Origin: Bdellovibrionales bacterium
Lineage (GTDB): Bacteria; Bdellovibrionota; FAC87; UBA2466
Length of the DNA stretch: 39,911 nt
Reading direction: 5' to 3'
NCBI GenBank assembly: GCA_005776395.1
Contig: SXPJ01000001.1
Coordinates: 1-39,911 of the forward strand
Under the pieces are notes generated by a model. It was not told the origin of the DNA. It did not search any database and saw nothing but the letters and a program-made list of their open reading frames with translations. Of the stretch, positions 20,448 to 23,375 are shown one piece after another. Each line of letters begins with the position of its first letter. Position 1 is the first letter of the stretch. The position numbers and the translations under genes are program-made.

Positions 20448-21302
20448 TTAAGAATTTACCTCAATTTCTTTTAAGTTTTTTACTAAAGCCTCATCAACTC
20501 GTCTTAAGGTCCAGAAGGGAAGGGCTGGGTGATTGACAGGGGGATTTAAGTAATTATCCCACTTAGCACTAATAAGTTTTCCATTTAATTCTTTGGGCTC
20601 GGTTTCACAAAGCCAATGGATTAGCTTAGCCGCTTTTCTAGGATCATCGCCCCCGTGTTTCATTCGATGTAGAGCCTCTTCTTGCTCTTTTCCAATCTTA
20701 TCAGTTGAGATCTTAGAAATCCCCTCCATCATCGGAGTTTTCATAGCTCCTGGGGCCACTGAATAAAAATGAAGTTTGGGATATTCCAGAGCTAAAGACT
20801 CGGTGAATCGAACCAAGGCGCATTTACTGGCTCCATAGGCGCCAAAATGAGGTCTGGGGGCTGTGGCTCCCCCTCCGGATAGATTGATCACTGTTCCCGA
20901 ATTTTGTTTTAAAAATAGGGGAAGAATAATTTTAATTAAAAAAACAGGAGCCAAGAAGTTAATCTGAATTGTCTCTTCAAACTCTTGAAAGTCTAGCTTC
21001 TCAAGTTTACCGCAAGGGCCTGTGATGGCAGCGTTATTGATTAGGTGGTCGATTTTTCCTAAACGGTCCAGCGTTTGATTCACCCAGCTCTTACAGTCCT
21101 CCTGATTTTTAATATCTCCTTCGACAAAAAGGACTCCGGGATATTTTATCTTAAGAGATTTTGTTGCCGCAGGATTTCTTACTAAGACCGAAAGTTTGTG
21201 GTGAGTCTCAAGAAAGGTTTCTATGAGGCTCTCAGCAAGTCCCCTGTATCCCGAGATTAGTGTAACTGGACGGTTTAGCCCAGTTTGGGAGTGAGTTATC
21301 AT
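20448..21302 (-). CDS. Classical SDR oxidoreductase in the heptose cluster
   Basis: The 284-residue short-chain dehydrogenase has a cofactor loop SGYRGLAESL (17-26), NNAAITG (89-95), catalytic Ser142 in INLSGGG and the pair Y156-GAS-K160. It ends about 40 residues beyond the usual core. The only usable start (ATG 21302) lies inside the end of hddA, an overlap of 71 bases. Substrate is unknown. Placed between hddA and the phosphatase on the same strand, it probably modifies a heptose or its nucleotide form, but classical SDRs of this length act on many substrates. Confidence 0.85.
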   Translation of the reverse strand: MITHSQTGLNRPVTLISGYRGLAESLIETFLETHHKLSVLVRNPAATKSLKIKYPGVLFVEGDIKNQEDCKSWVNQTLDRLGKIDHLINNAAITGPCGKLEKLDFQEFEETIQINFLAPVFLIKIILPLFLKQNSGTVINLSGGGATAPRPHFGAYGASKCALVRFTESLALEYPKLHFYSVAPGAMKTPMMEGISKISTDKIGKEQEEALHRMKHGGDDPRKAAKLIHWLCETEPKELNGKLISAKWDNYLNPPVNHPALPFWTLRRVDEALVKNLKEIEVNS

Positions 21303-22305
21303 AACGCCCTCGACTGTCAGAGAGATTGACTAGAACTTTACTGCCCTCGGTATCGAATCGATAGCGAAGTTCTCTGAGCCCCTCTTGGTGCATAGCCCTT
21401 CTCAGTTGTTTGTGCCGATTATTGGTGTAGAAAACAAAAAACCCTCCACCTCCAGCCCCAGTGATTTTGCCCCCTAGGGCTCCACTGGCTTTAGCTAGTT
21501 CGTAGATTTTATGAATTCTTGGATCGGCAATTTTTGAGGATAACCGTTTCTTGTTTTTCCAATGTTCATCCATAAGAAGACCAAAGCTATCTAAATTACC
21601 CGATTCAATAGCTTCAATTGTTTCGTAACCGATCTCTTTGATTCGATGAAGGCTATCGGTTACAGTTTTGTCCTCTTTTTTTACAGAGCTATCTTGGTGT
21701 TTTAAAATTTCATCAGCAGAACGGGTCATCCCTGTGTAAAAAATCAAAGTGTTCCTATTGAGTTCATCCATTATGTCGTAAGAGATAGGCACTCTACGGA
21801 TATTTACCTTGCCCGATTTTTCAATTTCCAAAATGGGGAGCCCACCTACAGCTGCTACATATTGGTCCTGTTTGCCTACGGGCTTTTTTAGAACCTCCAT
21901 TTCTAGATAGCAGGCTGTTTCTGCAAGTTGGGGTTGGCTTGGAATATCTCTTTTTAAGGATTGAAGCGCATGAAGTAGCCCCACAACATAACAGCTCGAG
22001 GATCCAAGCCCTGTGCCGGCAGGAATGTCGGCCATGGAGAGAATTTCAATGGCGTTTTCAATCCCTGTAAATTCCAGAGCGGCTTTAGCCAATTCGTGTT
22101 GGAGCTCTTCAACTGACTCTACGCATTCTGATTTAGAGTACTTAACCCGAACTAAATCATCCACAATAGGGCGGTTAACTGAAATAAACATGTACTTATC
22201 AATGGCTGCGCTGAAAACTAAGCCCCCATACTTGCTGTAATAAGAGGGTAGGTCGGTTCCTCCACCCCCTAGGGTGAAGCGAAAAGGAGTTCGAGTGATG
22301 ATCAT
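21232..22305 (-). CDS. hddA: D-glycero-alpha-D-manno-heptose 7-phosphate kinase (HddA-like GHMP kinase)
   Basis: The 357-residue GHMP kinase starts MIITRTPFRFTLGGGGTDLP, the standard HddA opening. The ATP loop IPAGTGLGSSS lies at about 94-104, KKPVGKQDQYVAA at about 135-150, and KITGAGGGGFFVFY is the C-terminal glycine-rich motif. The family normally ends soon after LRYRFDTEGSKVLVNL. Here a further 35 or so residues (DSRGRYDNS...GIQGTC) run into the SDR gene, suggesting the original stop was lost or the overlap is a coupling device. It phosphorylates heptose 7-phosphate at C1 for GDP-heptose synthesis. Confidence 0.9.
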   Translation of the reverse strand: MIITRTPFRFTLGGGGTDLPSYYSKYGGLVFSAAIDKYMFISVNRPIVDDLVRVKYSKSECVESVEELQHELAKAALEFTGIENAIEILSMADIPAGTGLGSSSCYVVGLLHALQSLKRDIPSQPQLAETACYLEMEVLKKPVGKQDQYVAAVGGLPILEIEKSGKVNIRRVPISYDIMDELNRNTLIFYTGMTRSADEILKHQDSSVKKEDKTVTDSLHRIKEIGYETIEAIESGNLDSFGLLMDEHWKNKKRLSSKIADPRIHKIYELAKASGALGGKITGAGGGGFFVFYTNNRHKQLRRAMHQEGLRELRYRFDTEGSKVLVNLSDSRGRYDNSLPNWAKPSSYTNLGIQGTC

Positions 22306-22646
22306 ATGGCTACACTATAGATAGGGATTGTTTTCTGTGTCAAAGGCTAAAAACCTAAGACTCATAGCTGTTCTCAGTGAATAAATTTTGAGGCTAATTG
22401 AGGAGCACTAGAAAAGCCTTTTCGCAAAGTCTCGGTGTGCCATTGGGGTAATTTTATGAGGGTTCATTCAAGAATTTGGATATGAAAGTGGGGCGTACAG
22501 TGACTTTCTTTGGAACTGGTAGCCCCACTTTCATATCCAAATTCTTGAATGACTCCGCTTTTTACCATGTGCTGTGGCTCACCTAGAACTGTTGTAAGAC
22601 TCAAGTCCATGTTGCTCTTTGGAATCTATTCAGATATCAAAATTGG
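22306..22646. other. Divergent intergenic region, 341 bases
   Basis: Lies between hddA (minus) and the glycosyltransferase (plus). Its main content is a long perfect inverted repeat (listed separately). The rest is AT-rich without a recognisable ORF, tRNA or transposase. Promoters for both operons should be here. No strong ribosome binding site precedes the ATG at 22647. Confidence 0.6.
22464..22552. repeat. Perfect 31-bp inverted repeat (long hairpin)
   Basis: The left arm 22464-22494 (starting TCATTCAAGAATTTGG, ending GTGGGGC) is the exact reverse complement of the right arm 22522-22552. The 27-base centre can add a bulged stem, TACAGT against ACTGGTA. No target-site duplication flanks it, and no T run follows either arm. 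It sits between divergent genes, so it is not a simple terminator. Confidence 0.95.
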
Positions 22647-23375
22647 ATGAAATTAAGTCTAATTATTCCCACTTTTAATGAGGCCAAAAAAATCCACCTC
22701 GATTTAGACGCTGCAAATCAATTTTTAAGGGCTCAACCCTTCGATTCTGAGGTTCTGATAGTTAATGATGGGAGCCGGGATGAGACTCAAAAAGTAGCTG
22801 AAGAGCTTTGCGGTAAATATTCAAACGATAAAGTAGCTTTCAGAGTTCTTAGTTATGGAGAAAACCGTGGCAAAGGGTATGCGATCCGCTATGGAGTAAG
22901 TCAAGCTAAGGGGGATTTGATCGCCTTTGCGGATAGCGGTCTTTGTGTTCCCTTTTCCTTTTTAACCTACGGAATAGAAAAAATAGAGAGAGGGGCCGAT
23001 TATGCATTGGCCTCAAGACGTTTAAAGGAAACTAAGATTAAGCGACAGCAGCCGTTGTATAGAAAGCTAGGCTCCAAAGTTTTCTGGTTTGTGGTCAAAG
23101 GGTTTATGGGAGTTCAAGTTTCTGATACTCAATGTGGTTTTAAAATTTATTCAAACAAAGCGGCTAAAACTATTTTTCATCGAGTTCAAACGGATGGGTT
23201 TATGTTTGATATCGAGGCGCTTTTAGTGGCTAAAAAGCTTAAACTGAAACATGCAGAATTTCCTGTGGAGTGGTCCAATGATAGCGATACCCGATATCAC
23301 CCGATTTGGGGGACCTTAAAAAACTTAAGAGAGTTGACTGCCATTCGTTTAAGGAGTTTTTCGACCCATGCGTGA
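22647..23375 (+). CDS. Family 2 glycosyltransferase, dolichyl/polyprenyl-phosphate glucosyltransferase-like
   Basis: The 242-residue GT-A protein opens with LSLIIPTFNEAKKI and has VNDGSRDET (39-47) and NRGKGYAIRYG, plus SDTQCGFKIY, the hallmark of the ALG5/DPM1-like branch that loads sugar onto polyprenyl phosphate. Where the DxD motif is expected (FTDAD in relatives) it reads F-A-D96-S-G98, so the second Asp is missing. No membrane helices follow the catalytic domain. Its stop overlaps the epimerase start by 8 bases, so the two are co-translated. Probably provides a lipid-linked sugar or glycan linkage for the surface polymer. Confidence 0.85.
   Translation: MKLSLIIPTFNEAKKIHLDLDAANQFLRAQPFDSEVLIVNDGSRDETQKVAEELCGKYSNDKVAFRVLSYGENRGKGYAIRYGVSQAKGDLIAFADSGLCVPFSFLTYGIEKIERGADYALASRRLKETKIKRQQPLYRKLGSKVFWFVVKGFMGVQVSDTQCGFKIYSNKAAKTIFHRVQTDGFMFDIEALLVAKKLKLKHAEFPVEWSNDSDTRYHPIWGTLKNLRELTAIRLRSFSTHA

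Follow-up and report, generated by a model that had tools for sequence, protein, structure and literature searches.

The window, i.e., the whole stretch of 39,911 nucleotides analysed here (contig SXPJ01000001.1 of a Bdellovibrionales bacterium), contains two divergent genes, at 21232-22305 on the reverse strand and at 22647-23375 on the forward strand, separated by an intergenic gap of 341 bp. This gap carries an inverted repeat whose arms (22464-22494 and 22522-22552) are complementary over 31 of 31 bp and enclose a centre of 27 nt. Both the perfect repeat and its divergent context had been reported in a preliminary description of this DNA, and both were recovered. Ungapped extension of the repeat leads to arms of 38 nt with 92% complementarity. 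As RNA, the hairpin would fold with an energy of -60.4 kcal/mol (z -12.5), and none of 200 shuffled sequences was equally stable. A terminator reading was rejected, since the stem lacks an immediate T-run and the genes of the locus are divergent. The earlier statement that there is no T-run is correct directly after the stem only, as a GCTTTTT motif is found a few bases downstream.

The inverted repeat is only the core of a larger non-autonomous transposon, a MITE of 230 bp, whose right end faces the gene at 22647. The locus is organized as follows:

22356-22364, no strand: left target-site duplication of 9 bp, TAAGACTCA, identical to 22595-22603
22365-22594, forward strand: complete 230-bp MITE copy, with boundaries deduced from copies with unrelated flanks
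22365-22380, forward strand: left terminal inverted repeat of 16 bp, TAGCTGTTCTCAGTGA, from comparison of the family copies
22464-22494, forward strand: left 31-bp hairpin arm, complementary to the right arm
22495-22521, forward strand: 27-nt centre, flipped relative to its flanks in 4 of the 32 compared copies
22522-22552, forward strand: right 31-bp hairpin arm, complementary to the left arm
22579-22594, forward strand: right terminal inverted repeat of 16 bp, TCACCTAGAACTGTTG, from comparison of the family copies
22595-22603, no strand: right target-site duplication of 9 bp, identical to 22356-22364
22612-22617, forward strand: putative -35 box TTGCTC, at +18 to +23 from the right end, with TTGC kept in four empty sites
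22635-22640, forward strand: putative -10 box TATCAA, at +41 to +46 after a 17-bp spacer, with TATC kept in four empty sites

Searching the genome to which the window belongs (2.76 Mb in 106 contigs) with a 116-bp query centred on the inverted repeat led to the identification of 40 distinct places, fragments included. Many genomic copies were precisely what the preliminary description had proposed as the test of a mobile repeat family. The copies remain similar past the hairpin in both directions, and those with unrelated flanks all cease to match at the same points. Both ends were found in 27 of the 40 fetched loci, which delimit elements of 205 to 233 bp, mostly 230 bp. Among these 27 two-ended copies, 23 are bordered by 9-bp duplications with at most one mismatch (12 identical, 11 with one mismatch) and four by sequences with three or more mismatches; the other 13 loci, cut by contig ends or rearranged, were left out of this tally. 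The absence of a target duplication, as initially claimed, is thus contradicted, including at the window locus, where an exact pair of TAAGACTCA (22356-22364 and 22595-22603) bounds the 230-bp element. The 16-bp terminal repeats are imperfect, with CAGCAGTTCTCGGTGA as family consensus; the corresponding pattern has 96 sites in the genome, against a single one when the pattern is reversed as a control. Inside the 230-bp element, no ORF reaches 80 aa. A short length, terminal repeats, the lack of a transposase frame, a target duplication, empty sites and dispersed copies are what is expected from a MITE, and it is almost certain that the feature of the window is one, ordinary in kind.

The downstream gene was matched in five congeners. 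One of them (G001) was left out because a contig edge falls inside the gene. In all four congeners examined (G002-G005), both neighbouring genes are present and the gap measures 91-103 bp instead of 341 bp, so that the site is empty; these gaps align with the flanks in the window once the element and one duplication are removed. The possibility that the repeat is a foldback chimera of sequencing or assembly is unlikely, because 40 genomic places carry it or a fragment of it and because the four congeners show the empty site. A conserved regulatory site was also discarded, as the element is missing from the locus in the four congeners and as its 141-bp core has no match at E ≤0.01 in 28 relatives. 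With the whole element as query, weak matches were obtained in 2 of 13 other family members; they cover query bases 1-89 and 13-59, which correspond to left-end sequence. No match to the element was detected in plasmids or in viral contigs, the latter being scanned with exact strings of 20 and 30 nt.

Shorter elements sharing the MITE ends are also present in the genome (about 72 to 190 bp, from end coordinates paired by hand). Seven of them (L084, L085, L086, L087, L088, L089 and L090; about 72-160 bp) have the same ends and are unmatched by the hairpin query. L084 and L089 are bordered by exact 9-bp duplications although they lack the hairpin, and the latter therefore seems unnecessary for mobility. 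Partial copies located within about 0.6 kb of other copies, at L032 (G000:C17, about 454-517) and L052 (about 413-452), suggest repeated insertion into the same region. At L053 (G000:C74:1-605), a fragment of the element, in which no right end can be recognised and which is a rearranged remnant, neighbours a reading frame of IS66-like appearance by eye. Moreover, a second multicopy repeat is found at or near many contig ends (39766-39911 in the window; contigs C57, C64, C25, C6, C7, C12, C14 and C62). It adjoins the MITE at one point, around element position 93, in C12, C13, C14, C57 and C64; this shared junction suggests a composite transposed as a single unit or, alternatively, a preferred target.

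The claim that no transposase is present holds for the window locus but not for the genome, in which a fragment of a transposase gene is found elsewhere behind the same left end. Only incomplete copies of this autonomous partner, an insertion sequence (IS), are present in the assembly. Contigs C34 and C27 break off within an element that starts with the left sequence of the MITE (about 70 bp aligned) followed by a reading frame. What L073 and L074 share with the MITE is the left end, in front of the transposase frame, and the frame of L074 includes a stop codon. Relatives of the 67-aa N-terminal part of this transposase were detected at 19 loci in public genomes; none was confirmed in viral contigs. 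A deltaproteobacterial MAG (L099), a Desulfococcaceae MAG (L105, identical to L198) and a Saccharobesus plasmid (L188) each carry a complete IS whose ends match and which is bordered by exact 9-bp duplications. Others, with more diverged ends but also with exact 9-bp duplications, are carried by plasmids of Anabaena (L192) and Calothrix (L193).

The homologue L097 matches the Pfam family DDE_Tnp_1 above the cut-off (E 2.4e-7), and the matches of L104 and L105 to this family fall below it. Compared with known folds, a structure model of L104 fits the Tn5 transposase best (E 6e-7), the model being poor overall (mean pLDDT 52) and confident only for residues 211-350 approximately. A plasmid homologue in Gloeothece, annotated as ISNCY, shares 37% identity with L104 over 91% of the query; this copy has identical 16-bp inverted repeats, without matching duplication and without promoter in register (see below). 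A search of NCBIfam with five homologues (E ≤10, with filters that drop most matches above 0.1) gave no match to ISLre2, ISKra4 or IS256. The partner transposase is thus probably an ISNCY-like DDE enzyme with a Tn5 fold, the evidence for the DDE domain and the fold coming from homologues rather than from the copy of the window's own genome. It is proposed that this enzyme would act in trans on the 16-bp ends of the MITE, which it would thereby move, and would duplicate 9 bp of the target.

The sequences flanking the right end reveal where the element inserts. Forty-eight different right flanks were found; one (L158), limited to 16 nt by a contig end, was dropped, and the 47 others, among which no pair exceeds 53% identity over 70 nt, were stacked without gaps at the right end. 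The stack draws a sigma70 promoter with a -35 box at +18, a 17-bp spacer and a -10 box at +41. Thus, T18 is found in 40 of 47 flanks, T19 in 30 and G20 in 26, and a TATAAT-like box is seen from +41 to +46 (T41 28, A42 30, A43 26, A44 26, A45 25 and T46 25). When the flanks are scored individually, using textbook-like box matrices, the best promoter starts between +17 and +19 in 27 of 47 (exactly +18 in 25) and elsewhere in the 20 others. The same positions are occupied in only 2 of 44 left flanks. Shuffled flanks gave on average 2.3 and at most 7 of 47 in 500 trials, and rotation of the 47 flanks 2.3 and at most 8 in 1000. With the upstream regions of other genes taken at the same distances from the start codon, the mean was 2.4 and the maximum 7 in 300, against 19 observed, both out of 32. 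The mean promoter score peaks at +18 (4.2, to be compared with a mean of -3.2 and an SD of 1.3 over 60 offsets), and TTG occurs at +18 in 19 of 47 flanks and in no more than 4 at any other offset. The register is present with the left module (16 of 32) and without it (11 of 15). It is very probable that this promoter register is real. At some of the adjoining promoters, the -10 box lies only 6-7 nt before the start codon (22635-22649 in the window, and similarly at L144); such promoters would give leaderless or nearly leaderless mRNAs.

The element also has a preferred orientation towards the neighbouring genes, which were called by an in-house gene finder. Among 29 elements for which both end modules and the two neighbouring genes are available, 17 lie between tandem genes with their right end toward the start of the next gene, 9 between divergent genes, 3 between tandem genes in the other direction and none between convergent genes. 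When all 60 elements and fragments are considered, these numbers are 25, 10, 6 and 4, respectively, with 15 lacking a neighbour. As background, the gaps of the fetched loci are 58 ++, 48 -+, 37 -- and 20 +-. Under a cruder ORF rule, 14 of 27 copies were tandem and pointed toward the gene, 8 were divergent and 4 undecided, with a single copy inside an ORF and none of the two other kinds; for some copies, such as L046 (identical to L129), this rule and the gene finder gave different results. The location of over half of the studied insertions about 17 bases upstream of a promoter, mostly in one orientation, suggests that the transposase seeks promoters.

Sites lacking the element indicate which came first, the promoter or the insertion. 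At the window locus, the promoter boxes are recognisable in the four empty sites. The genes located downstream of 20 other insertions were sought in G003 and G004; loci were obtained for 30 of 41 matches, giving 29 distinct loci whose orthology rests on the best protein match, not on synteny. None of them harbours an exact end or arm string within 500 bp upstream. The boxes could be aligned in 27 of these loci, derived from 15 sites, and 18 comparisons concern sites with a box score of at least 4 in their own genome. In these, the boxes are kept (score of at least 4) in 11 and not kept in 7. Two of the seven failures, both at site 10, look kept in the alignment and were still counted as failures; the alignment therefore adds noise. 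Since the boxes are often, although not always, kept where the relatives lack the element, the promoters came before the insertion.

The related ISs provide another comparison, based on 27 ends with at most 2 mismatches in loci from other taxa. For ends on the reverse strand, which are right ends wherever the related element is complete, 8 of 13 are in register (rotation mean 0.57, with 0 of 1000 rotations as high); three of these 13 ends come from a single locus with several elements, L108, and two of the three are in register. For forward, i.e., left, ends, 3 of 14 are in register (rotation mean 0.63, with 20 of 1000 as high). In L099 and L188, a perfect TTGACA is found at +18. The promoter of the L105 IS is at +13, and a promoter in register is missing at two complete cyanobacterial ISs with exact duplications. 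The fact that related ISs share the same register argues that it is set by the transposase and not by the interior of the MITE.

Taken as a whole, the proposed explanation is that of a MITE mobilized in trans by an ISNCY-like transposase and inserted upstream of promoters, to which a probability of about 0.75 can be given. The element would insert just upstream of existing sigma70 promoters, its right end being at about -52 from the predicted start, which leaves 17 bp up to the -35 box, and the transposase would probably recognise the promoter together with the bound RNA polymerase. We infer that the register is set by the transposase rather than by selection after insertion, with RNA polymerase as guide. 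That the register reflects targeting is likely; for RNA polymerase as the guide itself, the chances appear evenly balanced.

Selection could nevertheless add to the register pattern. In its strong form, which we consider unlikely, the element would insert widely, but persistence would be restricted to copies with their right end at about -52 relative to a promoter, where it would serve as an activator site or UP-like element. A fixed distance and orientation would also be compatible with a helix-phased activator site, and A/T is enriched at +5 and +6 of the right flanks, where UP elements bind the alpha C-terminal domains. However, the register recurs at 8 of 13 right ends of related ISs that differ in their interiors and come from other phyla, and the promoters already exist in relatives with an empty site, at the window locus and in 11 of 18 comparisons elsewhere. 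Furthermore, neutral intergenic insertions elsewhere should survive, yet none of the 29 elements lies between convergent genes.

The hairpin could itself be the conserved object, as a small RNA or a regulatory leader with base pairing under selection, given its very stable fold and its many complementary double changes. This is very improbable: among 41 stem mismatches, G-U pairs (17) are not favoured over A-C (14), the orientation of the centre varies among copies, the element is missing from the same locus in four congeners and short variants carrying the ends lack the hairpin, being unmatched in the hairpin search. Searching Rfam gave eight matches with E ≤1, seven of them to microRNA models, and all far below the gathering score. 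Neither the small-RNA gene nor the regulatory hairpin envisaged in the preliminary description finds support in the empty congeners, the lack of G-U bias or the Rfam search. A functional invertible switch, in which a recombinase would flip the centre between the arms and thus regulate the downstream promoter, would account for the centre flipped in 4 of 32 copies on separate branches. It can hardly be retained: the 27-nt centre has no reading frame, both orientations are found upstream of genes, no obvious recombinase was noticed by eye among the ORFs listed at 18-27 kb, and arm homogenisation and centre inversion jointly fit template switching. As for REPIN or RAYT-type palindromic repeats moved by a TnpA-REP transposase, the MITE resembles them in being extragenic, palindromic and multicopy, but it is flanked by a 9-bp target duplication and ends in terminal inverted repeats, and the match of its left end is to an IS encoding a DDE-type transposase. 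IS200/605-type transposases are not known to make target duplications. The probability of this kinship is negligible.

The hairpin looks more like a passenger than a regulator. In 32 copies (989 base-pair cells), the two arms changed in a complementary manner in 30 cells; 19 of these double changes are distinct, and 11 occur in one copy only. The 5000 column shuffles gave 3.2 on average and never more than 11. The 41 stem mismatches comprise 17 G-T, 14 A-C and 10 others; with such close numbers of G-T and A-C, there is no clear tolerance of G-U on the RNA strand. Four of the 32 copies (L044-L047) have their centre flipped with respect to the flanks, and a truncated copy (L055) also fits this form. 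On a tree built from the flanks only of 29 copies, three rearranged ones being excluded, centre inversion needs 4 changes, at least 3 of them forced by well-supported branches. The idea of a recombination substrate put forward earlier is thus acceptable in a limited sense, that of an inverted centre in these four copies. Template switching is reported as homogenising inverted-repeat arms and inverting spacers in yeast (PMC8604942) and as creating and maintaining RNA hairpins (PMC8794818). Template switching during replication would explain both the identical arms and the occasional inversion of the centre, and is most likely the best account of the perfect arms; the inverted centres may also be of assembly origin. 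Inheritance of the hairpin from the right end of an IS was considered and rejected, as none of seven right-end regions of related ISs has a comparable inverted repeat: four have none, and three have imperfect pairs of 12 to 18 nt.

The MITE is unusual by its insertion habit, in which it resembles a known and apparently unrelated group, and informative by its hairpin. According to PMC3942029, TnGBS/ISLre2 elements (p-MULT 3) insert in an oriented manner ahead of sigma-A promoters: their right inverted repeat adjoins the promoter and is separated from the -35 box by 15-17 bp (peak 16). The authors suggested, as a proposal only, a contact between the transposase and a subunit of the initiation complex. 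The oriented promoter-upstream insertion is shared with the MITE, whose gap is 17 bp against their 15-17 bp. However, the homologous transposases studied here are not Mutator-like by the tests made, their best fold match being Tn5, and what moves here is a MITE of 230 bp built around a hairpin. In the same paper, 13 ISs of the ISKra4 group (p-MULT 4) are reported to target promoters. The MITE resembles them by its insertion upstream of promoters but, unlike this group, which has promoters on both sides, it shows the signal almost only on the right (27/47 vs 2/44) and would depend on a different transposase family. The homologous transposase of the Gloeothece plasmid (37% identity to L104) relates the partner transposase to the ISNCY-annotated DDE transposases. 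In the open-access literature searched, including PMC11448079 and PMC9208149, no report of promoter targeting by ISNCY elements or by a bacterial MITE was found. According to PMC9208149, ISs in general are often located within 100 bp of genes. Like other bacterial MITEs, for example MITEAba12, the element is short, non-autonomous and multicopy, with terminal repeats and target duplication. It differs from bacterial MITEs in general by its fixed promoter register and biased orientation, and by a long inner hairpin whose arms evolve in concert around an invertible centre.

It seems rather probable that a Tn5-fold lineage without kinship to the Mutator-like p-MULT enzymes came independently to insert at the same fixed distance upstream of sigma70 promoters and in the same orientation, and that the MITE exploited this guide. 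If true, this would imply a shared physical guide, most simply the promoter-bound RNA polymerase holoenzyme, through which the MITE planted a hairpin-bearing element at dozens of promoters. Promoter-guided transposition in bacteria is known from a few Mutator-like elements; a second, structurally different transposase with nearly the same register would make the idea of a contact with RNA polymerase directly testable by comparison. It would also provide a natural system that places DNA at a set distance upstream of promoters. For the host bacterium, the insertions amount to a partial map of its promoters, and the copies record template switching at a palindrome, with arm homogenisation and repeated centre inversion within one family.
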